A DNA stretch of 20,329 nt, taken from positions 1-20,329 of IMG/VR virus record IMGVR_UViG_3300025892_000207; one strand, written 5' to 3'. The position numbers and the translations under genes are program-made. This DNA is from a virus. The notes under the pieces were generated by a model that worked only from the letters and a program-made list of their open reading frames with translations, had not been told where the DNA came from and searched no databases. Shown in pieces: positions 3,283 through 17,259 of this stretch. Positions within the stretch are counted from its first letter, which is position 1; each line of letters begins with the position of its first letter.

Positions 3283-3287
3283 CCCTC
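3263..3287 (-). terminator. Rho-independent terminator
   Basis: Minus-strand sequence GAGGGTTGCAAGACCCTC folds into a 6-bp GC-rich stem (3287-3282 with 3275-3270), extended by a T-G pair closing a GCAA tetraloop of GNRA type. It is followed directly by seven T residues (3269-3263). It lies 24 bases beyond the stop of the DUF4278-like gene and would end that transcript. Confidence 0.85.
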
Positions 3288-3310
3288 AGGAAAGTTAAGT
3301 GCGATGATCG

Positions 3311-3454: not shown

Positions 3455-3495
3455 AATTTTACTCCTAAAGTAATTGGATTTTTAGGTCCGTTCCT

Positions 3496-3657
3496 TTAGT
3501 CGTTTGCGTCCCAATAACAATTAGGATTTGATTCCTTCATTGTCTCAACTAACTCAACCCTAAACTCATTACTAATATTTTCATTTGTCTGCATTCGCAG
3601 TATGATAGCATCAGTTTGCTGACAGGTGAGGGTTGTGTAAAATAATAGTTCTAACAT
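3496..3657 (-). CDS. Small conserved-type phage protein, unknown
   Basis: 53 residues from the ATG at 3657-3655, starting MLELLFYTTLTC and ending CYWDAND. The hydrophobic N-terminus is too short and polar to call a membrane helix with confidence. The frame stays open upstream to an ATG at 3723 and a TTG at 3750, but those overlap a sigma70-like promoter (TTGACT/TATAAT, 3750-3722) whose transcript would begin near 3715; the 3657 ATG is therefore the better start, with a leader of about 58 bases. No Shine-Dalgarno precedes it, which is a weakness. Small proteins with a similar WDAND-type ending occur in cyanophages, from memory. Confidence 0.65.
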   Translation of the reverse strand: MLELLFYTTLTCQQTDAIILRMQTNENISNEFRVELVETMKESNPNCYWDAND

Positions 3658-3715
3658 GGGATCAACGGAACCGTTGCGCGACTTACTTGCGTCAGAGTCT
3701 CCTCTGATGAACGAT
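3658..3715 (-). promoter_or_regulatory. Hairpin-rich 5' leader of the small gene at 3496
   Basis: Between the predicted transcription start and the ATG, two hairpins can form. TCAGAG-GAGA-CTCTGA (3707-3692) has a 6-bp stem and a GNRA-type loop. CAACGG-TT-CCGTTG (3676-3663) is a near-perfect palindrome. The only purine-rich ribosome-site-like stretch (GAGGAGA) is folded into the first hairpin and is not placed to serve the ATG at 3657. Confidence 0.45.
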
Positions 3716-3721
3716 AGGTCC

Positions 3722-3750
3722 ATTATAGACCTTATACTATATTTAGTCAA
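3722..3750 (-). promoter_or_regulatory. Sigma70-like promoter
   Basis: On the minus strand TTGACT (3750-3745) is separated by exactly 17 bases from a perfect TATAAT (3727-3722). It is close to the bacterial housekeeping consensus and so is a likely early promoter read by host RNA polymerase. It would drive the 53-residue gene at 3496 and the DUF4278-like gene down to the terminator at 3263. Confidence 0.75.
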
Positions 3751-3814
3751 GAGGTTTTTGAAAATCCCTACAGACCAAAAAATTGCCAGGATTTTTTTTG
3801 CCGATATTTTGGAA

Positions 3815-4174
3815 TTATTTCCGCTTTTTGGTTGAGGGTGCCGGTTCTATTCCCCATAGTTTTGGATTGGTTCTTCCCATACCAAAACCAATACCCTTTA
3901 AATTCTCACGGAACTTATCCCAGTACATGTTAAAGATACGAACCTCTTTCTGACTACGAGTCAAATCATATCTCGTTTCTCCATCAACCACATAAGTGAT
4001 TATCATGGCATCATAAGGACAATCTTTGGTGGATACCTGTTCCCAAGTTCCATTTTCTATCAGTATATCGCATCCATATACGGATTTAGAATTTTCTTTT
4101 TCTGATGGTGTCCATGAAGTCATAGACTGTTCCTCTTCTGTTTTAGTGGGAGCATCTCCCAATTGATTTGCCAT
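3815..4174 (-). CDS. Conserved-type phage hypothetical protein
   Basis: 119 residues from the ATG at 4174-4172, two bases after the stop of the DUF6433 gene, so probably coupled; a TTG at 4195 would extend it by 7 residues with no better ribosome site. The N-terminus is low-complexity and polar, the middle holds a beta-like segment (CDILIENGTWEQV, DAMIITYVVDGETRYDLTR), and the C-terminal part is aromatic (FNMYWDKFRENLKGIGFGMGR) and ends in a basic KKRK tail. I do not recognise a domain. The 64 bases between its stop and the next promoter hold no gene. Confidence 0.75.
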   Translation of the reverse strand: MANQLGDAPTKTEEEQSMTSWTPSEKENSKSVYGCDILIENGTWEQVSTKDCPYDAMIITYVVDGETRYDLTRSQKEVRIFNMYWDKFRENLKGIGFGMGRTNPKLWGIEPAPSTKKRK

Positions 4175-4176
4175 AA

Positions 4177-4758
4177 TTATGAACGATTTCCCCAAGTAAT
4201 GTCTGGATATGCTTCACTTACAATTTCTTTTGTGATCTTATATCTATCTGAAAGTTTTTTATCTTTACACAAACAAACAATCTCTGCTTCTAATGGATGA
4301 AGTCCTTCAAGAATGTTAATGAACATCGTTTCACGACGAACACCACTCATACTATCATTACCACCCTTAATAAAGTGATAAAAATTCTTAAACTCTCTAC
4401 GAATTGTAGTGTGACCATTCTTATCACTTGAACCCATAGAAAATGAATCCATTTCATGCATTCTACGAACTTCTTCTGTGATTTTAGTGGTCAGAGTTCC
4501 ATTTGATGATGCCTGATCCTCAAATCCAGAATAAGGAACCTCTCCTTCAGGAAGCATGGAAATTATACTTTCATCAAAGTTCCAAATTAGTGTTGCCTTC
4601 AAAGAAACATGCTCATACTTCTTCAGAACTTCAATCTTCTTTGCTTTACTTCTCTGTTTAGAAACAAGATCCAAAACCTCAAAAACAAATGGATTTTTTG
4701 GAAGTTCTAATGATACTGCCTTAGTCGTTGTCGTTTTCTTCTTCGTTGTTGTCGTCAT
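4177..4758 (-). CDS. DUF6433-like cyanophage protein
   Basis: 193 residues from the ATG at 4758-4756. After a Thr/Lys-rich start (residues 1-14) it follows the pattern I recall for DUF6433, a family of T4-like cyanophages: K-x-EVLKKYE near the start, LPEGEVPYSG in the middle, FYHFIKGGNDSM, RETMFINILEGLHPLEAEIVCLCKDKKL and a C-terminal YKIT...AYPDITWGNRS. Function is unknown. A TTG at 4767 would add three residues. Its start overlaps the membrane-protein gene by 38 bases. The call rests on motif memory, not a search. Confidence 0.75.
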   Translation of the reverse strand: MTTTTKKKTTTTKAVSLELPKNPFVFEVLDLVSKQRSKAKKIEVLKKYEHVSLKATLIWNFDESIISMLPEGEVPYSGFEDQASSNGTLTTKITEEVRRMHEMDSFSMGSSDKNGHTTIRREFKNFYHFIKGGNDSMSGVRRETMFINILEGLHPLEAEIVCLCKDKKLSDRYKITKEIVSEAYPDITWGNRS

Positions 4759-4948
4759 AGTTTTCAAAATTAAATGCGATTACTTCATCTGGAATTAGAT
4801 TTCCTTGCTCATCAAACATCTCAGGATGATATCTCGGTGCCTCTCTATAGTTCATCATATATTCTCTGGCAGTCCAACCAATCATCAAACCCATCATAAG
4901 AAATAAAATGGTTAGAAATGAACCAAATACTAAACTAGTTGCTAACAT
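4721..4948 (-). CDS. Small single-pass membrane protein, acidic tail
   Basis: 75 residues. A strongly hydrophobic stretch at about residues 3-24 (SLVFGSFLTILFLMMGLMIG) is followed by WTAREYMM, predicting an N-terminal membrane anchor. The rest holds a YHPEMFDEQGNLIPDEVIAF segment and a very acidic end (DDNNEEENDND). Start ATG 4948-4946 has GGAG about 10 bases upstream. Small anchors with a similar HPEM-(Y/F)-D-x-x-GN tail recur in cyanophages (from memory); the acidic domain would face the cytoplasm or periplasm depending on topology, which cannot be read here. Confidence 0.78.
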   Translation of the reverse strand: MLATSLVFGSFLTILFLMMGLMIGWTAREYMMNYREAPRYHPEMFDEQGNLIPDEVIAFNFENYDDNNEEENDND

Positions 4949-5168
4949 TTTTCTTACTCCGGGATGTCTTAATAGAAAATTCGAAATAGATAGTTACTTC
5001 CCGTCTCAGAAAGCAGACCATCTTTTCAAAGATAATATGAAATGGTTGTGTCTGCTTTCTTTTTCCCCCATTAAGTAAGAATTCAACACCACGATTTCTG
5101 TGGTCTTCATTTTTATTTATGTTAAGACCTGATGACTTGTTGTTCTCTGAGGAATTTGATTGTGTCAA
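4935..5168 (-). CDS. Possible overlapping small gene, unknown
   Basis: An open frame of 77 residues fills the 173-base gap between glutaredoxin and the membrane-protein gene, with 47 bases inside the glutaredoxin frame. No in-frame ATG is available near the start; a TTG at 5168-5166 has AGGAGG 5 bases upstream, although that AGGAGG also encodes the glutaredoxin Gly-Gly motif. From residue 20 the sequence is protein-like, basic and aromatic (HRNRGVEFLL, QPFHIIFEKMVCFLRREV). It overlaps the next start by 14 bases. A rival reading is a 34-residue frame from the ATG at 5111-5109. Real coding is more likely than not, but the start is uncertain. Confidence 0.5.
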   Translation of the reverse strand: MTQSNSSENNKSSGLNINKNEDHRNRGVEFLLNGGKRKQTQPFHIIFEKMVCFLRREVTIYFEFSIKTSRSKKNVSN

Positions 5169-5364
5169 CACATCCTCCTAATTTTTTATTATCACATACT
5201 ACTTGTGGAAAAGTAGAACCTTTACCAAATTTAGCATAAAATTCTTCTCTTGTAAAGTCTTCTTCAAGTTTATAAGATTCAAAATCTGTACCGGTCAGTT
5301 CAAATACTTGTTTAATCTTATAACAGTGAGGACAATTTTCTTTTGTGTATACTTTGAAATTCAT
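5122..5364 (-). CDS. grx: Glutaredoxin
   Basis: 80-residue thioredoxin-fold protein with the redox motif CPHC at residues 9-12, the cis-proline segment TFPQV near residues 49-53 and the glutathione-binding LGGCVDT near 60-66. Length and order of motifs are those of class I glutaredoxins, which in T4-like phages (nrdC) donate electrons to ribonucleotide reductase. The ATG at 5364-5362 starts right before the first beta strand (NFKVYT); an alternative non-ATG start at 5403 adds 13 basic residues and is unlikely. It is preceded by a 118-base gap that holds no confident gene. Confidence 0.92.
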   Translation of the reverse strand: MNFKVYTKENCPHCYKIKQVFELTGTDFESYKLEEDFTREEFYAKFGKGSTFPQVVCDNKKLGGCVDTIKFLREQQVIRS

Positions 5365-5482
5365 TTTTTTCTTATAAACAATTAAATTTTTTATATATAA
5401 CACTCCACTTCCTGATAATATAAAATGGAGAGTATTGAAATTTTATCTAATAGTTCTCTTACAGAGATTGATATAGTAATTA
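5365..5482. other. Intergenic gap ahead of glutaredoxin
   Basis: This AT-rich gap has two imperfect dyads. One is TCTCT-TAC-AGAGA (5455-5467). The other is a roughly 7-of-8 bp pairing of ACTCCA with TGGAG across 5402-5433. A TATAAATG (5491-5484), one base off the late-promoter box, overlaps the end of the upstream oxygenase gene. No U-tract follows either hairpin, so I do not call a terminator. Confidence 0.3.
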
Positions 5483-6013
5483 TCATTTATATAAAATGCC
5501 GTTATTTTCAGTATTAAAATTAATTTGTAAATTAAAAGACATAATGATTCTTATTTCATTAGATAAATTAGATGGTGCATAATGTAATAGATTTGAAGGA
5601 AAAAATATTATATCACTCTCTTCTACATCAGGTTCATATCTTTCCAATTCTCCTGTAATATAATTTCCAAAGGGCGAAATAAAAGTTGTTGGTTTATGCA
5701 AATTCTTATCATACTCTATAAAACAAACTGAAGAAAATCCTGTTGGTCCGTGAGTATGAACTGCATGATTCATACTATTTTCATATTTTTGAAACCAAAC
5801 TTCACTAGAAGAAAACTTCATTTGAATATCTTCTTCAAATACTTTAATTTCTTCTAAAAGTATATTTGTCTTAATATCAATAGGACTTGTGATTACATTA
5901 CCAACTACTTTATTTTGCAAATTATTAAATAAATCTAATAATTTTTTCTTTTTAATTTTCCAATTTTGAACTTTATACTTATAAATTGGAATAGAAAATG
6001 CAAGGTTTTTCAT
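5483..6013 (-). CDS. 2OG-Fe(II) oxygenase-like protein (copy 3)
   Basis: 176 residues from the ATG at 6013-6011. The C-terminal half has the pattern of the phage 2OG-Fe(II) oxygenase family (Pfam 2OG-FeII_Oxy_5 type): HTHG with H86 and H88, then a strand block FSSVCFIEY, then FFPSNLLHYAPSN giving the distal ligand candidate H144, and R155 in EIRIIMSFN as the 2-oxoglutarate-binding arginine. Such enzymes hydroxylate protein, sugar or small substrates in marine phages; the substrate here is unknown. GFSSVCFIEY deviates from the usual SGVYYL. A sigma70-like promoter (6096-6068) lies directly upstream, separating it from the cysteine-synthase gene. Confidence 0.75.
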   Translation of the reverse strand: MKNLAFSIPIYKYKVQNWKIKKKKLLDLFNNLQNKVVGNVITSPIDIKTNILLEEIKVFEEDIQMKFSSSEVWFQKYENSMNHAVHTHGPTGFSSVCFIEYDKNLHKPTTFISPFGNYITGELERYEPDVEESDIIFFPSNLLHYAPSNLSNEIRIIMSFNLQINFNTENNGILYK

Positions 6014-6067
6014 ATAAAGTTTCACGATCAATTTTTACAAAAAATTTGATATAGTATATATTTTTAT

Positions 6068-6096
6068 ACTCTAGTACGCAGTGGTCAATTTGTCAA
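6068..6096 (-). promoter_or_regulatory. Sigma70-like promoter
   Basis: A perfect -35 TTGACA (6096-6091) and TAGAGT (6073-6068, 4 of 6 matches to TATAAT) are spaced by 17 bases. It overlaps the stop codon of the cysteine-synthase gene and precedes the oxygenase start by about 55 bases. The weak -10 leaves doubt. Confidence 0.5.
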
Positions 6097-7067
6097 GTAT
6101 CTTTCTGAAAAACTTCCAATTTTTTAGATTTTAACCATTTCTCATCATAAAATGTTGATGAATATCTGTCACCAGAATCATACAATACGGTAACTATAGT
6201 ATGACCTGGACCTAATTCTTTTGCCGTTTCTATTGATGCATATATATTTGCTCCAGAAATTGGTCCCAAATATAATCCCTCCTTTCTGAGAGTATAAAGC
6301 ATATTATTCAGACAATCTTGATCTTTCACACAAATTGCATCATCAATAAAAGAATGATTTAAATTGCGAGTAATCACAGTATTACCGACTTCTTCAAGAT
6401 TAGTACTTCCTAGACCTCGAATCAGTATTTCACCAAGAGTCGCCCAGTTATATACCACACTTCCAAGAGAATCAACTACAACACATTTTATCTTTTTATT
6501 TTGCTTCTTTAAAAATGATGATACTCCAGAATAAGTTCCTCCACTTCTTGTAGAACATACCCAAGCATCAATTTTTCCATTTGTCTGATTCCATATTTCC
6601 ACTGCCGTTGAATTTTGATGTGTTTCTTTATTTGCAGAATTTTCAAAGTAGTTACACCAGAAAACATTCGAGAATTGATTTGCCATTTTTTCAGGAATCT
6701 TAGAATAATGATTTTCATCAGTTTCTGGAACTACCGGAACCTCAATAACATTAGCACCAAATCTTCTCATTAATTCAATTTTTTGATTACTCCCATTCTC
6801 TGGAATTACAATAGAGCATTGATAATTTAAAGAATTGCATAAAAGTGCAAGACTGACTCCAAAGTTTTCCGTGGTTGCCTCAACAATTACATCATTTGGT
6901 TTAAGTAGTCCTTTATTTTCTGCATCTCTTATAATTCCAAGAGCGGTTCTATCTTTGATTGAACCACCTGGATTCATAAATTCTGCTTTCGCAAGAATCT
7001 CACAACCAGTCATATCACTGATTGCATTGAGACGAATTAAAGGTGTATTTCCAATAGCACTATACAT
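6093..7067 (-). CDS. cysK: Cysteine synthase-like PLP enzyme
   Basis: 324 residues of the fold-type II PLP family, the length of bacterial CysK, which makes cysteine from O-acetylserine and sulfide. Seen: GNTPLIRL at residues 6-13; PGGSIKDR at 33-40 with the PLP lysine K38; NYFENSANKETH near 139-150; SGGT at 175-178 for the PLP phosphate; and DSGDRYSST near the C-terminus. Changed: the substrate loop normally TSGNTG is TTENFG (65-70), keeping only the asparagine N68, and the usual GTGGT reads RSGGT. It may act on a different acceptor or nucleophile. It is preceded by a late-promoter-like box 27 bases upstream. Fold confidence is high, exact reaction moderate. Confidence 0.85.
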   Translation of the reverse strand: MYSAIGNTPLIRLNAISDMTGCEILAKAEFMNPGGSIKDRTALGIIRDAENKGLLKPNDVIVEATTENFGVSLALLCNSLNYQCSIVIPENGSNQKIELMRRFGANVIEVPVVPETDENHYSKIPEKMANQFSNVFWCNYFENSANKETHQNSTAVEIWNQTNGKIDAWVCSTRSGGTYSGVSSFLKKQNKKIKCVVVDSLGSVVYNWATLGEILIRGLGSTNLEEVGNTVITRNLNHSFIDDAICVKDQDCLNNMLYTLRKEGLYLGPISGANIYASIETAKELGPGHTIVTVLYDSGDRYSSTFYDEKWLKSKKLEVFQKDT

Positions 7068-7093
7068 TGTGATTAAAAAATAATTAAAGTTTA

Positions 7094-7101
7094 TATTTAT
7101 T
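7094..7101 (-). promoter_or_regulatory. Late-promoter-like box ahead of cysK
   Basis: AATAAATA on the minus strand, one base from the T4 late consensus TATAAATA, ending 27 bases before the ATG of the cysteine-synthase gene. The same spacing is seen for the perfect box at 8535-8542. In AT-rich DNA a single 7-of-8 match can be chance; the spacing and the intergenic position are the support. Confidence 0.45.
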
Positions 7102-7150
7102 CTACACTTATCATTAGTACAGATTGTACTATCTTCAAGAAAAGAAAATC

Positions 7151-7222
7151 TTAATTTAAAATTGAGTTTTTTACTTTTATAAACTTTTCTTCAGTCAGAA
7201 AATTATCAATAACTTCATGCAT
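7151..7222 (-). pseudogene. Likely truncated remnant of a 2OG-Fe(II) oxygenase gene
   Basis: A 23-codon frame, starting MHEVIDNFLTEEKF and ending KVKNSILN before TAA at 7153-7151. This opening (VIDNFLxxxxFxxIxxxI) is how many phage prolyl-hydroxylase-like 2OG oxygenases begin, normally followed by a FPWYY-type segment and about 180 more residues, which are absent. It overlaps the DUF6165 stop by 8 bases. I read it as the stump of a deleted gene. A genuine short peptide is possible but less likely. The other 80 or so bases of this gap hold the cysK late-type box and no gene. Confidence 0.4.
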
Positions 7223-7574
7223 AACATTTTACTTCTTGATAATATGAGTTTGTTTTTTCGTTAATTTGTTTTTTGATAAGTGCTCTTTGGTCGTTTGTTT
7301 GATATACCTGTCTTGCAAGTTCTATAAAAGTTGAAGAAAAGTCTTGTTTCTTTTCTAGTTCACGGAGATGGTCTTCTATAATCCAAAGTTTTAAATTGAC
7401 CTCTTTAAGTTCTTGAAGATCTTGTTTGTTATAAACTTGATGTTCTTTTGCTGTATTAATTAAATCAGTGAGTTCTTTTTGAATATATGAATTATTAGAA
7501 TATTGTGATTTAATTTGGAGAATTGTGATTTTATCAAGTAATTCACCGACTGATATTGGTGTTTTAATTATCAT
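7215..7574 (-). CDS. DUF6165-like protein
   Basis: 119 residues with the pattern I recall for DUF6165: ISVGELLDKITIL at residues 7-19, a leucine-rich helix, LKEVNLKLWIIEDHLRELE near 56-74, DFSSTFIELARQVYQTNDQRALIKKQIN near 78-105. Almost wholly helical. In bacteria such genes sit near surface-polysaccharide loci; the biochemical role is not known. Here it lies 10 bases downstream of DUF1566 gene A and close to the glycan-enzyme block, consistent with that context. No enzyme motif is visible. Confidence 0.75.
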   Translation of the reverse strand: MIIKTPISVGELLDKITILQIKSQYSNNSYIQKELTDLINTAKEHQVYNKQDLQELKEVNLKLWIIEDHLRELEKKQDFSSTFIELARQVYQTNDQRALIKKQINEKTNSYYQEVKCYA

Positions 7575-7575
7575 T

Positions 7576-7614
7576 GTACAAAGTTCAATAAGTCACACAC
7601 CTGAAGGCACGAAC
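7576..7614 (-). repeat. Shared 3'-end repeat, copy A
   Basis: A 39-base stretch covering the last ten codons, stop and 9 bases beyond the DUF1566 A gene. It is identical to copy C (14193-14231), and 36 of these bases are identical in copy B (8047-8082). Conservation continues past the stop codon, so it is not explained by protein constraint alone. Confidence 0.9.
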
Positions 7615-8004
7615 ACAATTTGTAGACCCACTTGGACTCCGAGCTACACCACCATTTATAAAGCTCACATAGTATCCGCATACACCACTGGTGTAGATAG
7701 TAGAGCTCCAGTATACGGATTCACTGTAACTGTCCCAATGTGTTCTACAAGTGTATCCTGGGTTAGATAGTTGTGCAGATGTTGGTATGAACCAGTTGGT
7801 GGGTCCAGTACATTCAGTGGCGGTTATAATTGCATCATTGTTGCCCCAGGTTCTTGAGACCTCAGAGGATGCTGGTGCTACAATCCAGGCGACGGATCCA
7901 CCAGATCGGCAAATTAAATATCCTCCATTTATTTTACCACCAAGTGATGCCGATTGTACACTTTCAGATTCTTGCCAACATGTTGGTCCTACTAAAATTC
8001 CCAT
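7585..8004 (-). CDS. DUF1566/Lcl-C-like lectin-fold protein A
   Basis: 139 residues. Shares with paralogues B and C the blocks ICRSGGSVAWIVAPASSEVSR (N-terminal third), NWFIPTSAQLSNPGYTCRT (middle), YWSS, and the terminal NCVRAFRCVTY. The WxxPTxxxL...YWSST pattern is that of DUF1566/Lcl C-terminal domains, a compact C-type-lectin/FGE-like fold often used in adhesins. Conserved Cys residues may form disulfides. Position near the fibre genes suggests a receptor-contacting tip or decoration protein; this is inference. The segment between YWSS and CVRAFRC differs strongly between copies. No ribosome site is evident; an AATAAATA box lies 19 bases upstream. Confidence 0.75.
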   Translation of the reverse strand: MGILVGPTCWQESESVQSASLGGKINGGYLICRSGGSVAWIVAPASSEVSRTWGNNDAIITATECTGPTNWFIPTSAQLSNPGYTCRTHWDSYSESVYWSSTIYTSGVCGYYVSFINGGVARSPSGSTNCVRAFRCVTY

Positions 8005-8022
8005 TTTTTTATATGCTTTTAA

Positions 8023-8030
8023 TATTTATT
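8023..8030 (-). promoter_or_regulatory. Late-promoter-like box ahead of DUF1566 A
   Basis: AATAAATA (one mismatch to TATAAATA) in the 48-base gap between genes B and A, 19 bases before the ATG. The short distance leaves room for only about 12 bases of leader, so it is weaker than the boxes at 7094, 8535 and 15455. Confidence 0.35.
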
Positions 8031-8046
8031 TAGATCGTACAAAGTC

Positions 8047-8082
8047 CAAAGTTCAATAAGTCACACACCTGAAGGCACGAAC
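8047..8082 (-). repeat. Shared 3'-end repeat, copy B
   Basis: 36 bases identical to the ends of DUF1566 genes A and C. Next to it a short partial duplication (GTACAAAGT and again CAAAGT on the plus strand, 8038-8052) marks the junction where the longer 39-base identity of A and C is interrupted. Confidence 0.9.
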
Positions 8083-8508
8083 ACAAAAGGTGCCCGTGTT
8101 GGTTGATCCAGCGGAATTATGAAGGAGACTGACCCAACATACGTAAGCGGGGTTTACAGAGATACACTGACAAGACCAGTAATTCGTAGAGTTGTTATCC
8201 CAATGTGTTCTACAAGTGTATCCCGGATTGAGTAGTTGTGCAACGGTGGGTAAAAACCATCCACATGGATTACCTGCTGAACCTGCACTTGCCGAAACGG
8301 CATTTGTCATAGCAGCGGCGGTTGTGACGGCATCAAAACGATCAGATTTTGTTCTCGAAACCTCAGTGGATTCTGGTGCTACAATCCAGGTTACTCCACC
8401 ATTCCTACAGATTACATATCCTCCCGTTGGTACTAGGTGACCTATCGGAGAACATTCAATAATATAAGAATCTCCAACAGTTTTAGAAGGACCAAAAGTA
8501 AGGGTCAT
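8053..8508 (-). CDS. DUF1566/Lcl-C-like lectin-fold protein B
   Basis: 151 residues. Family blocks: YVICRNGGVTWIVAPESTEVSR, GWFLPTVAQLLNPGYTCRTHWD, YWSC where the other copies have YWSS or YWST, and CVRAFRCVTY at the C-terminus. It carries an Ala/Ser-rich insert (AAAMTNAVSASAGSAG) that A lacks. The probable role is adhesion or receptor contact in the virion, as for the paralogues. A perfect late-promoter box, TATAAATA at 8542-8535, ends 27 bases before the ATG and overlaps the stop codon of the GT9-like gene, so B and probably A start a late transcript. No clear Shine-Dalgarno. Confidence 0.75.
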   Translation of the reverse strand: MTLTFGPSKTVGDSYIIECSPIGHLVPTGGYVICRNGGVTWIVAPESTEVSRTKSDRFDAVTTAAAMTNAVSASAGSAGNPCGWFLPTVAQLLNPGYTCRTHWDNNSTNYWSCQCISVNPAYVCWVSLLHNSAGSTNTGTFCVRAFRCVTY

Positions 8509-8533
8509 TTTATTATGTATTTTATCTTTGGAA

Positions 8534-9508
8534 CTATTTATAAATTATTCTTTTTATTTGTTTTGGTTCTAGAAGAATCTCAGGTTTCTCCGTATTCTCA
8601 CCTTCTATGTTTTGAATGATTTCTTGATAGGCAGTTTCTATTTCTTTCTGTGTAAAATCAAGTCTGGATTCATTCAATCTTGATGACATATGTGCTTGAA
8701 AACCAGAGATTCTCATTGAGTCTGGATAAAATTTCACATCACGTTCAATAACATGAAAATGATCATAAGTCACATTGACCCGATGAGTTCCTGCAATCAC
8801 GACGGATGCCTTTTTACTGAGTGCCTTGCAGATATGCTGTCCGCAACTATCACATCCAATAAAATAATCAGCAGCACCAATGATTGCTGCCCATTCTCTT
8901 AAGTTTGGGTCTGGGTCTGGTTTATAAGTCTTGATATTATAAAGCTCCTTTGCACCCATAAAGATTAAATTGTAATTCTTTGATAAATTATCAATAAAAT
9001 AATTTAACATCTTATCAGGAATAGATCTCAAACTATCATCAAAGATTCCAGAGTCGTGTGGAGTTGCCGTAGAACCATAAGGTTGTAAAAGAATTGTTTT
9101 TTTCTTTTTATGTTTTTTCTTTGCTTCCTCAACAATCTCATATGCCTTTCTTTTTTCGGGAGAAGATAATCTAAGTTGCATTGGAAGTAAGTCACTATGG
9201 TCTGTACTATCATTAATGCAAATATCAAATGCTTCTCTTAATGATATTTCATTACGATAATATGCAGGAACACGATAAGGTTCTGGCGAAATTACTTGGT
9301 CTGCTTTCCAAAATAAATCAAAAGAACCTCTTGCATCAGGATTAAAGGTTCTTTCCTGAAGTTCTGGAAATCCCCATGTGATAAAATCCCATCCAGGAAT
9401 CATAATATACCACTCTTCGTCTGGATGATTTTTTGAGTATTTAAGTAGTGCTGGTATTGCCGTGATTATCCTTCCAAGTCCACCATCTAATGATATTATT
9501 GTAGTCAT
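8534..9508 (-). CDS. GT9-like glycosyltransferase (ADP-heptose transferase fold)
   Basis: 324 residues with a GT-B-type layout. The N-terminus TTIISLDGGLGRIITAIPAL is the GT9 opening (D/R-x-GGLGD-like loop then an IPAL helix). The C-terminal domain carries ILLQPYGS near residue 140, and DYFIGCDSCGQHICKALSKKASVVIAGT, matching the nucleotide-sugar-binding ...D-SG-x-xHxAxALG-x-P.. motif of heptosyltransferases. A last charged tail (GENTEKPEILLEP) is not part of the fold. Donor and acceptor are unknown; GT9 members usually extend LPS core. It overlaps the GT-A gene by ATGA, last in the glycan-enzyme operon. Confidence 0.75.
   Translation of the reverse strand: MTTIISLDGGLGRIITAIPALLKYSKNHPDEEWYIMIPGWDFITWGFPELQERTFNPDARGSFDLFWKADQVISPEPYRVPAYYRNEISLREAFDICINDSTDHSDLLPMQLRLSSPEKRKAYEIVEEAKKKHKKKKTILLQPYGSTATPHDSGIFDDSLRSIPDKMLNYFIDNLSKNYNLIFMGAKELYNIKTYKPDPDPNLREWAAIIGAADYFIGCDSCGQHICKALSKKASVVIAGTHRVNVTYDHFHVIERDVKFYPDSMRISGFQAHMSSRLNESRLDFTQKEIETAYQEIIQNIEGENTEKPEILLEPKQIKRIIYK
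8535..8542 (-). promoter_or_regulatory. T4-type late promoter box
   Basis: Exact TATAAATA on the minus strand, 27 bases before the ATG of DUF1566 gene B. In T4 this octamer is the whole late-promoter recognition element for gp55 with gp33. It shares bases with the last codons and stop of the upstream gene (…TAT AAA TAG). Confidence 0.7.
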
Positions 9509-10269
9509 ACGTATTTTAATGCAAATGTTTCTTTTTGTTCTTGATTATAAGCATCACCCATAACTTGTCTCCAGTCTATTACTGGACTAATATGATTTGC
9601 ATCACAATGAGTACTCCAACCAGGCATAGGAGAGATCAAATACCTGTGTTGTTTTTGAAGTTCCCAGAACTTATCATAATCTTTTGAATAGTGAAAACCT
9701 TCTTGTTCTTTTATACCATCAATTGAGTATTTTTTATGAACTTTTAAATCTTCTAACAATGTCTCATATTTACAAGCAAAGGTATTTGTCGTTGCAGGAA
9801 CTGCCCTCCAATGAGAACTTGGTGTTGTAAAAATTTCACTCAAATATCCTTTTGCAATAAAGAAATCAAAATCATATAAGGTAACATAATGAGAACCCAC
9901 TGCAAATCCTTCCAATAGTATATCACACCATCCAGTACGATGTAAATAATCATCTTCTAAAAAGTAAATGATTGTATCGTCATCAAAGTTTCTTGATTGA
10001 ATAATATCTAATGTAGAAAGAAAACTATCACTCTCACTTCCACAATTTATGATTTCTACATTATCTTCTTTTGCAAGAAAGGTCTTATCAATACTCCCAT
10101 AAAACTCATCATAAACAATAGTATAATTTACCAAATCAGGATTTAAGGTATTCTTAAAGTTCTCAAAAACCTTAATCTTATTGAACCACTGTGGTCTTGT
10201 ACGGTCTGGAAGTTCTTGTAACTTTGAGTAATAACAGTGTCTTAGAAAGACTTCAATTGGTTTTTTCAT
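9505..10269 (-). CDS. GT-A-like glycosyltransferase, EDDYLH type (copy 2)
   Basis: 254 residues from the ATG at 10269-10267; an upstream TTG at 10284 is less likely. The motif IIYFLEDDYLH places E105, D106 and D107 as a DxD-like metal and nucleotide-sugar site after a Rossmann-type start (PIEVFLRHCYY, NYTIVYDE). A conserved TPSSHWRAVPATTNTF block follows, then PGWSTHCDANHISP near the C-terminus. The paralogue at 10518 shares EDDYLH and TP..HW, so both are one family by duplication or joint acquisition. It overlaps its neighbours by 17 and 4 bases. The sugar is unknown. Glycosyltransferase assignment is by motif, not search. Confidence 0.68.
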   Translation of the reverse strand: MKKPIEVFLRHCYYSKLQELPDRTRPQWFNKIKVFENFKNTLNPDLVNYTIVYDEFYGSIDKTFLAKEDNVEIINCGSESDSFLSTLDIIQSRNFDDDTIIYFLEDDYLHRTGWCDILLEGFAVGSHYVTLYDFDFFIAKGYLSEIFTTPSSHWRAVPATTNTFACKYETLLEDLKVHKKYSIDGIKEQEGFHYSKDYDKFWELQKQHRYLISPMPGWSTHCDANHISPVIDWRQVMGDAYNQEQKETFALKYV

Positions 10270-10525
10270 TTTGTAAGAGTTCAAATCCTTTACGTTCTAT
10301 TTCTTCATAGGTCATTTTATAAAATTCATCGGGTCCTACTTTTTCATATAATTTTAAATATCCTGGAGGTATTACTTCAGTTGAAAAATAATACTGAAGT
10401 TCTTCATACAAAGGATTGTCTGTATCAATTCTTATCTGCAATGCCTTAATAATTTTTATAACATCCTCAAGAGTTTCAAGTCTTTCTGTGCATAATTCAT
10501 ACCTTCTTATAGGTTTTTCAGTCAT
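10253..10525 (-). CDS. Small protein between two glycosyltransferases, unknown
   Basis: 90 residues. Predicted mainly helical: LETLEDVIKIIKALQIRI near 16-33, a PPGYLKLYEKVGPDEFYKM stretch, then a charged amphipathic helix (TYEEIERKGFELLQNE). No catalytic motif. Its start overlaps the upstream EDDYLH enzyme by 8 bases and its end overlaps the downstream one by 17, so it is translated within the pair and may be a partner of one of them. An AATAAATA (10562-10555) 30 bases ahead lies in coding sequence and is probably chance. Confidence 0.7.
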   Translation of the reverse strand: MTEKPIRRYELCTERLETLEDVIKIIKALQIRIDTDNPLYEELQYYFSTEVIPPGYLKLYEKVGPDEFYKMTYEEIERKGFELLQNEKTN

Positions 10526-11333
10526 ATTTCACTCCAAATGATTTGATTTTACAATATTTATTCCACCATTCTAAATGGTTAATATGAGAATCTCTTTGCT
10601 TTTCAAATTGTATATGAAGTGCAAGAGAAGGAATAGGATTAACTCTTATAACATAATGTTCCCAGATATCGCTGATTGTATTTCCTTCGTGAACCAATTC
10701 TTCAATTGGATCTATTCCATTCCAAGGAGTATATTGTGATGCAAGTTTCTCAAAAATTTCCCAATAATCCTGAAATACTTTTGGAGTTGTCATCATGGTA
10801 AAAGTGGTCCATATACCCTCCTTCCAATGTCTCATAGGAGTCCTAAATATTCTTCCAGGAAATACATATCCATATTCATAATCTTCTGGATTATCAAAAG
10901 GAAAGATACAAAGTTCTTTTTGTAGATGATAATAAGACTTTAAGTATTGATAAGAAAACAACATTTCTTGTATTGCTTCGGTGCAATGCAAATAATCGTC
11001 TTCTACAGAATACACTAAATCTGCTGTTGAGTTCTTACAATATTCAAACTGCTTTAATCCACTATAATGAAATCCTGGTACTTCTAAATCTATGAGTTGA
11101 TATGAATGATTGAAGTGTTGAAGAATCTTATGAATTTTTGAAATACAATCTTCAGTACAGTGATCGTTTAAAATAGTAAGTGATATTCTATGTTCTTTTA
11201 CAAGATTTGCAGAGTTAATTAAAGAAGATAAGCAACCAAGTATCAAGTTTTTTTTAGGTACATCAATATATCTTGGTTTATCTCCATGAATATTTTTACC
11301 ATCATGAATTCTTAAGATAATTTCTATTCTCAT
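10518..11333 (-). CDS. GT-A-like glycosyltransferase, EDDYLH type (copy 1)
   Basis: 271 residues. The opening RIEIILRIHDG, then ISLTILNDHCTED, follows the alternating strand pattern of a GT-A nucleotide-binding domain. LVYSVEDDYLH places E111, D112 and D113 as the DxD-type site. FRTPMRHWKEGIWTTFTMMTT near residues 163-183 aligns with TPSSHWRAVPATTNTF of the paralogue at 9505. The C-terminus is rich in Trp, His and Lys. The start overlaps the upstream gene as ATGA. A family of such proteins occurs in marine phage surface-modification clusters, by recollection. The substrate is unknown. Confidence 0.68.
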   Translation of the reverse strand: MRIEIILRIHDGKNIHGDKPRYIDVPKKNLILGCLSSLINSANLVKEHRISLTILNDHCTEDCISKIHKILQHFNHSYQLIDLEVPGFHYSGLKQFEYCKNSTADLVYSVEDDYLHCTEAIQEMLFSYQYLKSYYHLQKELCIFPFDNPEDYEYGYVFPGRIFRTPMRHWKEGIWTTFTMMTTPKVFQDYWEIFEKLASQYTPWNGIDPIEELVHEGNTISDIWEHYVIRVNPIPSLALHIQFEKQRDSHINHLEWWNKYCKIKSFGVKYD

Positions 11334-12034
11334 TCTTCAATCCATTGTTTTCTTGGAGCCCAGTATCCTTCAATACCCATTAGACCGATATTTTGTACTA
11401 GTTTTTTATTTAAGTACTTATAAAGTAAATGCTCTATATCTGCTTGTTTTTCAGTTTTTGATGCAGCAATAATATCCTTCTTCATTTTACCATAAGTCTC
11501 TATAATATTCAAGATCAAACTACTATCAAAACTCCAACACCTGGTCATATACTGAAACATACTTGACTTTACATCAAAATTATAAAGATTTTGACTGGGA
11601 TATGGTGGTAAAATAAGAACCTTATTTTTTGCATCTAGATGCTTTGAGTGATTAAAATTTAAATTTAATCTATATCTTCCACTCAATTTGAATACTCTTT
11701 CATAAGAATATACAGAATGAGTTTTCAAATAATTCTCAAACATTATAATTTCTAACATCGACTTAATAATAATATCAGGTTTAAGGTCTCTATTATTCCT
11801 TAAGTATTCTTGAAGATGAAATTGAATTTCTGGATGTATTGTGTAATCAATCAACTCTACTCCAAAATCAATATCTACTGATTTCTCTCCTGCATCTAAT
11901 AGAACAATTTTTGAATCGGGTGCATAAGTCTCAATAGACTTTATGGTTTCTTTTGTTTGTGCAATACGTTCTGCTTCGGAACATTTACCATAAGAAGTAT
12001 AAATTGCAGAAGATACTAGAAATAGTGAGGTCAT
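11330..12034 (-). CDS. Glycosyltransferase-like protein
   Basis: 234 residues. It begins with a hydrophobic strand (TSLFLVSSAIYT), then QTKETIKSIETYAPDSKIVLLDAG, a pattern of GT-A enzymes that start from an N-terminal nucleotide-binding fold, and later ERVFKLSGRYRLNLNF, a motif (F-K-x-SGRY) found in many uncharacterised viral and bacterial glycosyltransferase-like proteins. A classic DxD is not obvious. It ends GIEGYWAPRKQW. It overlaps both neighbours by 4 bases (ATGA). Function as a sugar transferase is inferred from context and partial motif. Confidence 0.55.
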   Translation of the reverse strand: MTSLFLVSSAIYTSYGKCSEAERIAQTKETIKSIETYAPDSKIVLLDAGEKSVDIDFGVELIDYTIHPEIQFHLQEYLRNNRDLKPDIIIKSMLEIIMFENYLKTHSVYSYERVFKLSGRYRLNLNFNHSKHLDAKNKVLILPPYPSQNLYNFDVKSSMFQYMTRCWSFDSSLILNIIETYGKMKKDIIAASKTEKQADIEHLLYKYLNKKLVQNIGLMGIEGYWAPRKQWIEE

Positions 12035-12681
12035 TGATAAGAAAAGGTATTCTTTGGTGCAGCAAATACTAAATTACCAGCTATAGAAATACGATACTCA
12101 TCACTTGTGTAAAAAGGATTTACATTGTGCGATAATAAAGAAGGAAACATTATAATTGTTCCTTCATAAGTCTTATCTACATGAATGTTTTTTGTGTTAA
12201 GTCTTCCTAAAAAATCAGTAAAAGTAAATTGAAATAGGGAATTATCTGGAGTATTTGAATGTTTACAATTTGGTAGTGATAGTTCCTCTTTTAAATCATA
12301 AGGTATTGTAATCCATATAACAAATGATAACTCTCCATTATGATTGTGCATTGGATTATACTCATACTTTTTTTGAAAGTTAATCCATAGATCTTTAATT
12401 TTCCAGTTTGGATTTGGATAATGTTTATTTCCTTTATTTTCATAAGAATACTTATAAAACTCATTTGCAAGAGTAAATAAATCTTTCTCTAAAATTTCTT
12501 TACTCTTATAAGTTAAATATGCTTTCTCTAAATTTCCTGATAAGTAATTGTTATTTATTTTGAACTGACTTTGATTTTCAAGTATAAATTTTGCATCATT
12601 CTTAAGTTCTTTTAAAACATCACTTGATACTTTGGATTGAACATATAAAACATCTTGAGAATAAAAAGGTTCTATATTCAT
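12031..12681 (-). CDS. 2OG-Fe(II) oxygenase-like protein (copy 2)
   Basis: 216 residues. The jelly-roll half shows LWINFQKKYEYNPMHNHNGELSF with H112 and H114 as first-ligand candidates, GTIIMFPSLLSHNV with distal H185, and YRISIAGN with R197 for 2-oxoglutarate. The layout equals the copies at 13522 and 5483, but the usual SGVYYL strand reads LSFVIWI. The N-terminal 100 residues are Asn/Lys-rich and diverged. Overlap is TAATG with the sulfotransferase and ATGA with the next gene, placing it inside the glycan-enzyme operon. A sugar- or protein-hydroxylating role is inferred. Confidence 0.75.
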   Translation of the reverse strand: MNIEPFYSQDVLYVQSKVSSDVLKELKNDAKFILENQSQFKINNNYLSGNLEKAYLTYKSKEILEKDLFTLANEFYKYSYENKGNKHYPNPNWKIKDLWINFQKKYEYNPMHNHNGELSFVIWITIPYDLKEELSLPNCKHSNTPDNSLFQFTFTDFLGRLNTKNIHVDKTYEGTIIMFPSLLSHNVNPFYTSDEYRISIAGNLVFAAPKNTFSYQ

Positions 12682-13511
12682 TAGTTATACTCCATAAACT
12701 TCTTATCTAACTTTTTAATAATATCAACATCAGATTTATAATTTTTTCTCCAGAATTCCATATTCATTTCCTTATATTTCTTGACGATTTCTGGTGGAAG
12801 AATAATTCTTGGTGGTTTATATTCCACTCTTCTTTTCACTGTATGCAAATCCTTAAGATTACATGCCTTATCAAAGTTCTCATTTGAGTATTCTACATTC
12901 TCAAAGTCATGAGAATAATAAGGTTTCTCTAGGAACTCATAGACACCTCTCATTGTCTTTTCTGGTTCTTTACATAGGTTCTCATATTCAATAAAGTATA
13001 TCATCTCTGGATTGAGTGCAAATCCTTCTTGAAGGAAAGAGTAATAGTTAATTATTTCTCTTTGAAAAAGTTCATCAATTCTTATAAAAATATTTTGAGA
13101 AAATATTTTTTCATTAATTTGTTTAGTATAAAAACAATTTTTATTTAAAATAACTTCAAAGGAATTCAAAATTGAAACAATATCTCTTACAGGACATAAA
13201 ATCTTCGTATAAGGAAAGAGAGCACTAAGAAAGTTTGTTTTCTTTGTCCAATCTCTTGAACTATCAAAAATCACTGGTTCTTGAAGATGATTATAATAAC
13301 CTTCAAAAATTCCATACATTAGATTTTTTCTTTGATCTTCTGTGACTGTAAGATTACTTTCTGCACTAGTCACTATATCAATCGCAGTTCCTGTGAGTGC
13401 TTCTACTGGTGATGCAATATCAGCATAAAACTCTGGATTTTGTTTGAGTATTGATGAGAATAATGTAGAACCAGACCTAGGAAGTCCAGAGATGAAATAA
13501 TAAGATTTCAT
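12681..13511 (-). CDS. PAPS-dependent sulfotransferase
   Basis: 276 residues. The 5'-phosphosulfate-binding loop is GLPRSGSTL at residues 9-17, and the 3'-phosphate-binding segment CPVRDIVSILNSF has R109 and S117; both are diagnostic for the sulfotransferase family that moves sulfate from PAPS to hydroxyl or amino groups. The C-terminal half is helical with YEFLEKPYYSHDFENVEY, as in carbohydrate-type members. It lies between two 2OG oxygenases, 10 bases after the first and overlapping the second by one base. The likely acceptor is a glycan of the same cluster, by context only. It appears full length. Confidence 0.88.
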   Translation of the reverse strand: MKSYYFISGLPRSGSTLFSSILKQNPEFYADIASPVEALTGTAIDIVTSAESNLTVTEDQRKNLMYGIFEGYYNHLQEPVIFDSSRDWTKKTNFLSALFPYTKILCPVRDIVSILNSFEVILNKNCFYTKQINEKIFSQNIFIRIDELFQREIINYYSFLQEGFALNPEMIYFIEYENLCKEPEKTMRGVYEFLEKPYYSHDFENVEYSNENFDKACNLKDLHTVKRRVEYKPPRIILPPEIVKKYKEMNMEFWRKNYKSDVDIIKKLDKKFMEYN

Positions 13512-13521
13512 ATCTCAGGAC

Positions 13522-14139
13522 TCAGGATTGTGGATAATTAATAGTACCTTTTGGTAGGGCAATTAAATTAAAAGAAATTGAAATTCTTTCTTCGTCGTGA
13601 TTATTGGTTTCTACTGAATGAGGAAGATATGAAGGAAAGAGAATAATATTACCCTCTACTGGTTCAATACGGATACTTTCTCCAGTAAATTGATTTTTCT
13701 GTGAAGTAAGAGCACATCCATTCCACATACGATTGATTGCTGGATTTTGGAGTACCAGTTTTCCACTTTCATCAGGTGCTGAAAGATAGAAGACACCAGA
13801 GAATACTTCACGATTTACGTGTTCGGTATTCATACACTGGCGAGTATCATTAATATTCATCCACGCCGATGTGAGAGCAATATCACAGTCTACAAAGTCT
13901 AAATCTGCAGATGCCTTAAATCCCAACTGACAAAGATACTCAAAGAGTGGTCGTAGTTCTACAACACTTTGAAGTGTATCTGGAGATTGATAACCAGCAA
14001 TATTTGATCCTGATGTTTCTTTAGTTGGATTTTCTTCTTTATAAGTTCTTATTGCATTCAGGAAGATTTCTTTATGTTCCTCAAACTCTGGGTATTCACT
14101 TTGCCAGAGGGGAACAGAATAAATTGGCATTAAGTTCAT
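13522..14139 (-). CDS. 2OG-Fe(II) oxygenase (copy 1, most typical)
   Basis: 205 residues with the clearest family signature of the three: AWMNIN then NTEHVNREVFSGVFYLSAP with ligand H107, LQNPAINRMW, GNIILFPSYLPHSV with H174, and ERISISFN with R185 binding 2-oxoglutarate. This is the Pfam 2OG-FeII_Oxy_5 pattern common in marine phages, where the target is usually unknown. The ATG at 14139 or a second at 14130 could serve; neither has a strong ribosome site. The 62 bases up to DUF1566 gene C are very AT-rich and may hold a promoter I cannot define. First gene of the enzyme operon. Confidence 0.85.
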   Translation of the reverse strand: MNLMPIYSVPLWQSEYPEFEEHKEIFLNAIRTYKEENPTKETSGSNIAGYQSPDTLQSVVELRPLFEYLCQLGFKASADLDFVDCDIALTSAWMNINDTRQCMNTEHVNREVFSGVFYLSAPDESGKLVLQNPAINRMWNGCALTSQKNQFTGESIRIEPVEGNIILFPSYLPHSVETNNHDEERISISFNLIALPKGTINYPQS

Positions 14140-14192
14140 AGTTTATTCAAATCAATATTATATATTATAAGTTATATATGGTTATTATGCAA

Positions 14193-14231
14193 GTACAAAG
14201 TTCAATAAGTCACACACCTGAAGGCACGAAC
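14193..14231 (-). repeat. Shared 3'-end repeat, copy C
   Basis: 39 bases identical to 7576-7614 and, over 36 bases, to 8047-8082. It covers the last codons, the stop and the 9 bases after the DUF1566 C gene. All three copies are in direct orientation. Confidence 0.9.
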
Positions 14232-14672
14232 GCATCGTCCGCTCACGCACGACGATCTAGTGATCTGCCCCGTTACCATGGAAACTATGGTTTTAGTTGA
14301 TGCAGGATATGCGGGATAACCTGATGTAGACCAATAGTAGTTGTTGGAGTAACTGTCCCAATATGTTCTACAAGTGTATCCTGGGTTAGATAGTTGTGAA
14401 CAATTTGGTATGAACCAGACACTGCAACAGACAGCACCTGTATGGTTCTGGATTGGAGAAGTATAGCTTGCGGAACTATTCTCAGCAGTATAGGCAGATG
14501 CACATGTGATGGCATCACCAATATCGTTCCAGTTTCTCGAAACCTCAGTGACTGCTGGTGCTACAATCCAGATAATACCACCGGTTTTACAGATGACATT
14601 TCCTCCAACTGATTCCCCTAAAGAATGACTTTGATTAAACTGCTCTAATGTTCTACCAACGACGATTGTCAT
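14202..14672 (-). CDS. DUF1566/Lcl-C-like lectin-fold protein C
   Basis: 156 residues. Blocks: GGNVICKTGGIIWIVAPAVTEVSR, VWFIPNCSQLSNPGYTCRTYWDSYS, YYWST, RCVRAFRCVTY. It has extra cysteines (VCCSVW) in a longer central insert than A. A good ribosome site (AGGAG, spacing about 6) precedes the ATG, which lies 2 bases after the stop of the 251-residue gene, so it is co-transcribed from the late box at 15455. Like A and B it is probably a small adhesin or fibre-tip protein; its placement directly after the fibre genes supports that. Structural role is inference. Confidence 0.75.
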   Translation of the reverse strand: MTIVVGRTLEQFNQSHSLGESVGGNVICKTGGIIWIVAPAVTEVSRNWNDIGDAITCASAYTAENSSASYTSPIQNHTGAVCCSVWFIPNCSQLSNPGYTCRTYWDSYSNNYYWSTSGYPAYPASTKTIVSMVTGQITRSSCVSGRCVRAFRCVTY

Positions 14673-14673
14673 A

Positions 14674-15429
14674 TTACTCTCCTAAAATAGCAAAGAAATC
14701 TTGAGGAAGACGACAATCTGTTGCAATTTGTTTCAGTTCTGTTACAAGTTCTTCTGGAACTGTTTCATTTGTTTTCAGTACATCCCAAATTGTTCTAAAG
14801 TCATTGTACATTCCCAAATCTAATTTTGCAATTGCCGATGGAAATGACATTGCAAGAATTGGCTTTGTTTCCATGATTGATGCCACAAATTGATTGAATT
14901 CCACAGATTCAATCAAATACTTCTTAAACTTCACCCACAATATAGGAGGTGGAGGTGGAAGTTGATTCTCTGGTCTATAAGTATAGGTTTTTTTCTTTGT
15001 GTCTATTTCCGCCTTTGGTAATGGTGCCCCTAATTCTGCGGAACTTCTATAAGGAATATCATAATCTGTAGTATCTTCATCTATAAGAAGAATAACATAT
15101 TTTCTTTCCTTTGAATACCATACTGATTTATGAGTTTCTGGATCATAATCATAAGTTGTAGAGACCCAAAAATTATTTTCTTCATCAAAAGTGAGGGTTT
15201 CATCAGCAGAGAATTGTTCAATTTCCTCCTCGGTCATTTCATCAGTTCTTTCAATTTTGATCTTTGCAACTGGAGGAACATATGGTCCTTCCCAACCCCA
15301 AAGATGAAGTTCTGCATCATCAATTTCCGTTAAGTCTTTACGAATTGCCTTATTTTCAAATCTCCAGTAATCTGGAAGTTCTTGTGGGGTATTGCCCGTA
15401 GGTGGGCTATAAAGTTTTACTTGTTCCAT
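14674..15429 (-). CDS. Tail-fibre-associated protein of unknown function
   Basis: 251 residues. The N-terminal part (LPDYWRFENKAIRKDLTEIDDAELHLWGWEGPYVPP) follows the pattern of short phage proteins in which an amino-acid-frame phrase, x-R-x-DLTE-(L/I)-(S/D)-DxEL-x-x-x-GW-x-GP, precedes tail-fibre or assembly functions. The middle is acidic with repeated strands, then a PPPPP run near residue 172. The C-terminal 85 residues are helical and carry no known motif. It follows the long fibre gene from a perfect late box 26 bases upstream. AAGGAG lies 14 bases before the ATG, further than ideal. A chaperone or structural role is possible. Confidence 0.6.
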   Translation of the reverse strand: MEQVKLYSPPTGNTPQELPDYWRFENKAIRKDLTEIDDAELHLWGWEGPYVPPVAKIKIERTDEMTEEEIEQFSADETLTFDEENNFWVSTTYDYDPETHKSVWYSKERKYVILLIDEDTTDYDIPYRSSAELGAPLPKAEIDTKKKTYTYRPENQLPPPPPILWVKFKKYLIESVEFNQFVASIMETKPILAMSFPSAIAKLDLGMYNDFRTIWDVLKTNETVPEELVTELKQIATDCRLPQDFFAILGE

Positions 15430-15465: not shown

Positions 15466-17259
15466 TCAAACTGCAATTGTAGATAAATTACCAGAATCAT
15501 CAACAATCAAACGATATTGAGTACTATTTGGAGATGTTAAAATTACACCTTGAGATGTATCAAATCCAACTCGGGCATCTCCAATTACATGAAGTTTTGC
15601 TGTTGGATTTTCTGTTCCAACTCCTACAGAACCACCGGCACCAACAATAAATTGTGTCTCAAAACTAGAATTATTAATAGCAAATAATGAGGAACTATCG
15701 TCTTTGGATATTGAGAAGTATTGACTACTAGAGTCTGATTCTTCAAAACTTAAAGATCCCGATTCATTACTATACGCCTTTATCAACGTATCAAAAGTAA
15801 CTCCTGCACCAGTAGAAACTAGAATAGAACTAGTAACATCTAAATTTGCTCTTGGTGATGTGGTTCCAATACCAAGTCTCGTGGTTGATGGGTTATAAAT
15901 TAACTTATCAGTAACTCCAAATCCAGTTGTTGATGCTGCACCAGTAACATATGTTAGAGTTTGATTTTGATTTGAAATGTTTGATGTTATATCATTAGAT
16001 CTATTATTAATAGTTCCGGTAATAATAGCATCGCCAATTACATGAAGTTTTGCTGTTGGATTTTCTGTTCCAACTCCTACAGAACCACCAGCACCAACAA
16101 TAAATTGAGATTCAAAACTAGAATTATTGACGGCAAATAATGAGGAACTATCGTCTTTGGATATTGAGAAGTATTGACTACTAGAATCCGATTCTTCGAA
16201 ACTCAATGAACCAGATTCATTACTATAAGCCTTTATCAACGTATCAAAAGTAACTCCTGCACCAGTAGAAACTAAAATAGAACCAGTAACATCTAGATTT
16301 GCTCTTGGACTTGTCGTACCAATACCAAGTCTTGTGGTTGATGGATTATAGGCAAAGGTATCAGTAAATCCTAAACCAGCAGTAGAACCATTAATGGTTC
16401 GGAATAGTGCTGGTTGAATTTTATTTTCAGTATTGGATACAGAACCATCAGCAGATGTGCCATTGATGGTTCCAGTGATAATAGCATCACCTATAACATG
16501 AAGTTTTGCTGTAGGAATTGTGGTTCCAACTCCTACAGAACCACCGGCACCAACAATAAATTGTGTCTCAAAACTAGAATTATTGACGGCAAATAATGAG
16601 GAACTATCGTCTTTGGATATTGAGAAGTATTGACTACTAGAATCCGATTCTTCGAAACTTAAAGATCCCGATTCATTACTGTATGCCTTTATCAACGTAT
16701 CAAAAGTAACTCCTGCACCAGTAGAAACTAGAATAGAACTAGTAACATCTAAATTTGCTCTTGGTGATGTAGTTCCAATTCCCAAACGATTAGTAGAAGG
16801 GTTATAGGCAAAGGTATCAGTAAATCCTAAACCAGCAGTAGAACCGGAAATGGTTCGGAATAGTGCTGGTTGAATTTTATTTTCAGTATTGGATACAGAA
16901 CCATCAGCAGATGTGCCATTGATGGTTCCGGTAATAATAGCATCGCCAATTACATGAAGTTTTGCTGTAGGAATTGTGGTTCCAACTCCTACAGAACCAC
17001 CAGCACCGACAATAAATTGCGTTTCAAAACTAGAATTATTGACGGCAAATAATGAGGAACTATCGTCTTTGGATATTGAGAAGTATTGACTACTAGAGTC
17101 TGATTCTTCGAAACTTAAAGATCCCGATTCATTACTGTATGCCTTGATTAAAGTATCAAAAGTAACTCCTGCACCAGTAGAAACTAAAATAGAACCAGTA
17201 ACATCTAGATTTGCTCTTGGTGATATGGTTCCAATACCAAGTCTCGTGGTTGATGGGTT
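15466..17259 (-). repeat. Four tandem near-identical repeats of about 456 bp in the fibre gene
   Basis: Units begin at NPSTTRLGIGT: 17259-16804 (456), 16803-16348 (456), 16347-15895 (453) and a final 429-base copy ending at the stop. Each encodes ANLDVTGSILVSTGAGV...SSSQYFSISKDDSSSLFA...FIVGAGGSVGVGT. Copies differ mainly at third positions and in one linker: copy 3 has SNDITSNISNQNQTLTYV where copies 1 and 2 have SADGSVSNTENKIQPALF. Confidence 0.9.

Follow-up and report, generated by a model that had tools for sequence, protein, structure and literature searches.

The stretch of DNA analysed here, referred to as the window, is a complete IMG/VR record of 20,329 bp (IMGVR_UViG_3300025892_000207), itself a genome fragment. 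It contains three small genes for C-type-lectin-like proteins, lectins A, B and C, arranged on either side of an island of eight further genes; all genes of the locus lie on the − strand. Because positions 1–5373 are 91–92% identical to Synechococcus phage S-SKS1, the window belongs to a T4-like cyanophage. The three lectin genes end in a shared 3′ block. Most probably this block is the homing site of a diversity-generating retroelement (DGR). Genes of the same lectin family are diversified by DGRs in related T4-like cyanophages, and the window's own copies are probably orphaned. In the relatives the layout of the homing site is directly visible; for the window it is read by homology. The most fitting interpretation of the repeats is that they belong to a phage adhesin-diversifying system and are not the ends of a gene-swap cassette.

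In such a system, a reverse transcriptase (RT) would copy a template repeat (TR) rich in adenine, making errors at the adenines. The cDNA would then replace the variable 3′ part of the lectin gene (the variable repeat, VR), starting at the homing site (initiation of mutagenic homing, IMH) at the VR 3′ end. Here, the homing site would comprise 15 nt common to TR and VR, then a VR-only segment that runs through the stop codon into a conserved post-stop tract. Loss of the DGR would leave lectins A, B and C orphaned, or served in trans, with cores that have since been replaced or have diverged; recombination among the lectin copies would keep the shared internal blocks alike.

The shared 3′ block of the lectin genes

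The initial annotation described direct lectin repeats, in the same orientation, around a gene cluster, and these are real. Uninterrupted identity at the 3′ ends amounts to 36 nt (B/C), 39 nt (A/C) and 40 nt (A/B), and extends 6–9 nt beyond the stop codon. Further conserved blocks had been noted around the GYTCRT and WIVAP codons; the first (70 nt) is 93% identical between A and C and 77% between A and B, and the second (73 nt) is 64–82% identical among the copies. The estimated 6.1 kb between the repeats corresponds to a measured 6149 bp from C to B. BLAST comparison of lectin A gives E values of 2e-16 with B and 7e-16 with C, and the 15-mer core of the 3′ block occurs three times in the window at ≤3 mismatches, against 0.2 expected.

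The identity beyond the stop codon had been attributed to recent gene conversion or recombination, a view against which the relatives speak. GTTCGTGCCTTCAGG is common to TR and VR in DGR-bearing relatives; beyond it the two diverge, the VR going on with TGTGTGACTTATTGA; all three window copies carry exactly this VR-end sequence. Ten out of ten terminal codons are identical to those of relatives 011335 and 017963, and nine out of nine to those of 031787, which is as high as among the window's own copies; at other conserved lectin residues, only ~45% of codons are shared. The bases past the stop (ACTTTGTACTT) reappear after DGR-target lectins of distant relatives, whose RTs are 63–74% identical, and 13 of the 35 occurrences of this motif in 947 kb scanned fall within 45 nt of a lectin stop. 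A 27-nt pattern of the lectin 3′ end retrieves only seven IMG/VR contigs, all representing this locus. An exact 33-mer has no match in IMG/VR, and shorter patterns retrieved only this locus.

Since the block is equally identical in other phages, and DGR-target lectins are followed by the same post-stop bases, it is regarded as a conserved cis element. The 3′ ends are codon-identical to those of DGR lectins and are followed by bases that match the conserved tract; the window lectins are thus taken to carry a DGR homing site. Constraint at the protein level on the C-terminal strand VRAFRCVTY, several residues of which show little or no variation in the family, is a highly improbable sole cause of the shared ends, because synonymous identity reaches 9–10 of 10 codons across phages, far above the level at other conserved residues, and because both the identity and the shared motif run beyond the stop.

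Retroelement cassettes in related phages

The relatives comprise 26 IMG/VR contigs from lectin, glycosyltransferase (GT) and oxygenase searches and five from an RT search; most are fragments from one collection. In six non-redundant relatives (011335, 017963/017971, 045431, 034198, 021958/021964 and 008107/008110), the left-hand lectin is followed by an Avd protein of ~110 aa, a short lectin-like repeat, an RT of ~345 aa, and then oxygenase 1 of the island. In a seventh, 044678, the order is TR–RT–GT–lectin, with the target at the right-hand position; this contig begins inside its TR, and avd therefore lies outside view. Avd is recognised by Pfam (bAvd, 2.5e-18) and by PHROGs ('Avd protein of DGR', 9.5e-24), and the RT by Pfam (RVT_1, 2.8e-12). 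The RT carries LPIGNLTSQ, a motif of the DGR type.

The short repeat is identified as the TR because its differences from the lectin VR fall on template adenines. Mismatches at TR adenines versus other bases number 18/44 versus 1/87, 26/55 versus 9/100, 19/38 versus 3/65, 35/61 versus 8/92, 28/47 versus 1/81 and 14/40 versus 4/88; p values range from 1e-14 (28/47 versus 1/81) to 2e-5, apart from 045431 (see below). The VRs of two related phages differ at 27 of 128 positions, 24 of these at TR adenines and three elsewhere, while their TRs differ at three. At this locus the relatives thus combine RT, Avd, TR and VR with adenine-specific TR/VR differences, and by sequence their cassettes are DGRs; their mutagenic retrohoming activity is putative, presumed from the VR divergence between related phages. 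In relative 032301, the lectin just upstream of the DUF6165 gene differs from the TR of 011335 at 19 of 44 adenines and at 9 of 84 other positions (p = 4e-5), agreeing with this template at 75 of the 84 non-adenine positions. Judged from such alignments, left and right lectin positions can both be DGR targets.

The records of the DGR-bearing relatives also hold a PhoH protein related to that of the window, and cyanophage-like baseplate DNA. Among the phage-record matches listed, the nearest RT is that of Shewanella phage vB_Sb_QDWS (38% identical), and these matches include neither a cyanophage RT nor a close relative of these RTs from a sequenced phage isolate. In the literature, coverage of which was incomplete, no account of DGRs in T4-like cyanophages came to light.

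Among the closest known systems is the DGR of Bordetella phage BPP-1 (mtd–avd–TR–brt). The relatives have the same order of target, avd, TR and RT, adenine-specific TR/VR differences and a C-type-lectin target, and in both systems the VR 3′ end has a core that matches the TR exactly and, beyond it, a segment in which TR and VR differ. In BPP-1, the homing site has a GC-only core identical to the TR and a 21-bp segment differing from it, with a GC-rich hairpin after it (PMC3240598, PMC6642488). In contrast, the relatives possess neither a GC-only IMH core nor a GC-rich hairpin after the VR, a T/G-rich tract being found instead. They also differ from BPP-1 in being T4-like cyanophages, their RT being 31% identical to Brt, and the window, unlike BPP-1, lacks avd, TR and RT.

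Probably orphaned lectins and the fate of their cores

The initial annotation assigned the lectins to DUF1566. As a family label this is only partly borne out, since lectin A alone matches Pfam Lcl_C (formerly DUF1566), and does so below threshold (E 0.004; 17.8 bits versus a curated cut-off of 34.9), with no Lcl_C Pfam match for lectins B and C. The implied fold is right: the AlphaFold model of lectin A (mean pLDDT 87) has as its best PDB match 8q4e, the C-terminal domain of Legionella Lcl (Foldseek 8e-6, Z 13.8), and also matches other C-type-lectin folds. At the level of the predicted model, the assignment to the Lcl C-terminal-domain (C-type-lectin) fold holds despite the low Pfam score. 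Within the family, 11 of 21 members match Lcl_C at E<0.01, and one carries an Mtd_N N-terminal domain, a further likeness to BPP-1; tblastn found no homologues in phage isolates. DUF1566 is the commonest annotated target domain of DGRs (PMC4159848, PMC6642488). In bacterial and phage DGRs, variable proteins of the DUF1566/Lcl_C type have the same fold as the window lectins; the latter differ in being small and free-standing and in lying around an island of glycan enzymes, with no local DGR. With their C-type-lectin fold and variable 3′ part, they are of the kind that DGRs target. Lectins A, B and C lie next to tail-fibre genes and are most likely adhesins, with a putative receptor-binding or glycan-binding role.

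Several observations weigh against a DGR history of these genes. Within the window there is no RT (RVT_1), TR or Avd, and its repeats are shared by the three lectin copies only. The window cores fit none of seven TRs from relatives (non-adenine mismatches, 42–53%). They are, moreover, unequal in length and only 0.30–0.33 identical to one another, which a single TR cannot produce; an origin of A, B and C from one template is therefore rejected. Among the relatives, the adenine bias in 045431 is weak (9/33 versus 12/100, p = 0.04), and a BPP-1-type GC-rich hairpin after the VR was found neither in the window nor in the relatives.

The absence of a local DGR has counterparts among the relatives. 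At the junction of left-hand lectin and oxygenase 1, three relatives (023179, 042560 and 031787) retain a truncated avd and two (020578 and 021093) a degenerate one. Contigs 3300034198_008044 and 3300042560_001323 differ by ~1.5 kb, comprising most of avd, TR and RT, and no RT is present anywhere in the 243-kb 042560 record. The two are ~84–90% identical around the locus, and offer a natural comparison in which DGR loss can be studied. The window lectins, too, are probably orphaned DGR targets, or are served from elsewhere in the genome.

In 3300020578_000502 (7606–9124), three adjacent lectins have matching 3′ tails and cores that are unlike and unequal in length, with identical N-part codons at 55/55, 53/54 and 55/57 positions; a dead avd start lies between copies 2 and 3. 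Because near codon-identical N-parts here carry unlike cores, whole-core replacement does occur in the family. Core swapping between adhesin genes has been proposed for T4-type gp38 adhesins, and modular adhesins whose cores are exchanged when the conserved blocks on either side recombine homologously are a serious, if not a probable, explanation of the window, one that can act together with a DGR. The window shows the 020578 pattern, more weakly, and a single TR is unable to change core length; however, no lectin with the same core as a window copy was found that could have served as donor, and several TRs in one genome could yield the same pattern.

The internal blocks behave differently from the 3′ ends. 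Codon identity in the WIVAP and GYTCRT blocks is confined to the window's own copies, and on this comparison points to recombination or shared descent within the window genome. In the lectin N-part, the same-codon share is 0.71 within genomes versus 0.47 between genomes; lectin copies within one genome look homogenised, and other multi-lectin genomes show the same tendency. A recent origin of A, B and C as duplicates of one another was considered and set aside, the lectin tree being unresolved, with no supported clade.

The enzyme island and its lectin flanks

On the − strand, the gene order is a 1549-aa tail-fibre-like gene, a 251-aa gene, lectin C, eight island genes, lectins B and A, and DUF6165 (Table 1). 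The region from NrdC to the tail fibres (5400–15400) has no megablast match among 50,697 phage records, a search that may omit very near records.

Table 1. Positions of lectin, repeat and island features in the window.
Feature	Position	Strand	Remarks
Lectin C, 156 aa	14202..14672	-	C-type-lectin/Lcl_C-like, DGR-target type; left-hand position
GYTCRT block of C, 70 nt, conserved	14349..14418	-	93% to A
Variable core of C	14232..14348	-	unrelated to A and B cores
Conserved 3′ block of C	14196..14231	-	15-nt putative homing-site core + VR-only segment with stop + ACTTTG
Gap between C and oxygenase 1, 62 bp	14140..14201	.	relatives hold avd–TR–RT or decayed avd here
2OG-Fe(II) oxygenase 1 (TIGR02466)	13522..14139	-	left end of island
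Sulfotransferase	12681..13511	-	
2OG-Fe(II) oxygenase 2	12031..12681	-	
Island gene F20	11330..12034	-	no family match
Predicted GT-A glycosyltransferase	10518..11333	-	GT-A fold by model
Small 90-aa protein	10253..10525	-	weak match, PHROG of unknown function
Island gene F7	9505..10284	-	no family match
GT9-like protein	8534..9508	-	right end of island; heptosyltransferase III match far below cut-off
Lectin B, 151 aa	8053..8508	-	
GYTCRT block of B, conserved	8191..8260	-	77% to A
Variable core of B	8083..8190	-	
Conserved 3′ block of B	8047..8082	-	
Lectin A, 139 aa	7585..8004	-	AlphaFold model matches Lcl C-terminal domain 8q4e
GYTCRT block of A, conserved	7726..7795	-	
Variable core of A	7615..7725	-	
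Conserved 3′ block of A	7579..7614	-	
DUF6165 protein	7215..7574	-	right flank

The island was first described as seven enzyme genes plus a small protein. The count of eight genes stands, while an enzyme family can be assigned to three only (two 2-oxoglutarate (2OG)-Fe(II) oxygenases and one sulfotransferase); of the others, one is a GT-A protein by model, one has a weak heptosyltransferase match and two are unmatched. A role in modifying surface glycans would follow the published inference for cyanophage clusters (PMC7824862). According to passages of that survey, variable capsule/LPS-modification clusters of large cyanophages contain glycosyltransferases, carbamoyltransferases and 2OG-Fe(II) oxygenases; the same passages do not link them to DGRs, and report no FGS-type C-lectin domains in jumbo phages (PMC7824862). 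In S-SKS1, the island between NrdC and the tail fibres holds other genes, and lacks both an RT and any lectin of this family.

That the region is a variable island agrees with the gene turnover among relatives. It had further been proposed that the 6-kb enzyme block is excised or swapped as a unit when the direct lectin repeats recombine homologously with each other. This is unlikely, although part of the evidence is in its favour. The repeats are direct and in the same orientation, the lectins are homogenised within genomes, and the number of lectins at the GT–DUF6165 junction varies among relatives (0, 1 or 2). At this junction in 3300019765_000094 (2940–5912), two lectins flank a radical-SAM-like gene and two others; 035703 has a left lectin and, at the right end, a 38-aa lectin stump with an intact homing block. 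These two cases lend limited support to an exchangeable cassette. However, island genes are gained and lost one by one, mainly between oxygenase 1 (13522) and the GT (8534), that is, inside the lectin pair, and whether or not right-hand lectins are present, these two genes mark the ends of the island in every spanning relative except two, 045431 and 020204, where the oxygenase is immediately followed by a distant GT. Genomes with one lectin exist but keep the same enzymes: most relatives have the same island without a right-hand lectin, and among the spanning contigs only the window carries intact lectins to its left and right. Among the relatives, no genome pair with the same flanks shows a whole-block swap at the lectin joints. 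In addition, the 3′ identity is not recent, and identical stretches of 36–40 nt are short for homologous recombination.

Other features of the window include a cysteine-synthase-like PLP enzyme beside the island (6093–7067), just under the NCBIfam cut-off for PRK10717 and, among relatives, common only to 3300025889_005076. The 1549-aa tail-fibre-like gene contains four copies of a ~300-nt repeat (15538–17202; period ~455 nt, 85–91% identical), and 87-nt-spaced repeats occur at 19594–19924.

A single DGR can have several target genes (PMC6642488). A wider reading, offered tentatively, is that T4-like marine cyanophages use a DGR lineage unseen in sequenced isolates, with a hairpin-less homing site, for the hypermutation of small lectins around a glycan-modifying island; one RT may serve several copies on both sides, and after DGR loss, whole cores may swap through leftover homing blocks. 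For sequence interpretation, the locus adds the caution that identity extending beyond a stop codon can be the signature of a retroelement homing site instead of gene conversion. With the decay series, from intact cassette through RT deletion and avd stump to a lectin alone, environmental data can be used to test how targeted hypermutation is gained and lost. Synechococcus and Prochlorococcus have marine cyanomyoviruses among their major phages, and the surfaces of these hosts change; a DGR at a tail-fibre/glycan island would be a programmed answer to such change.

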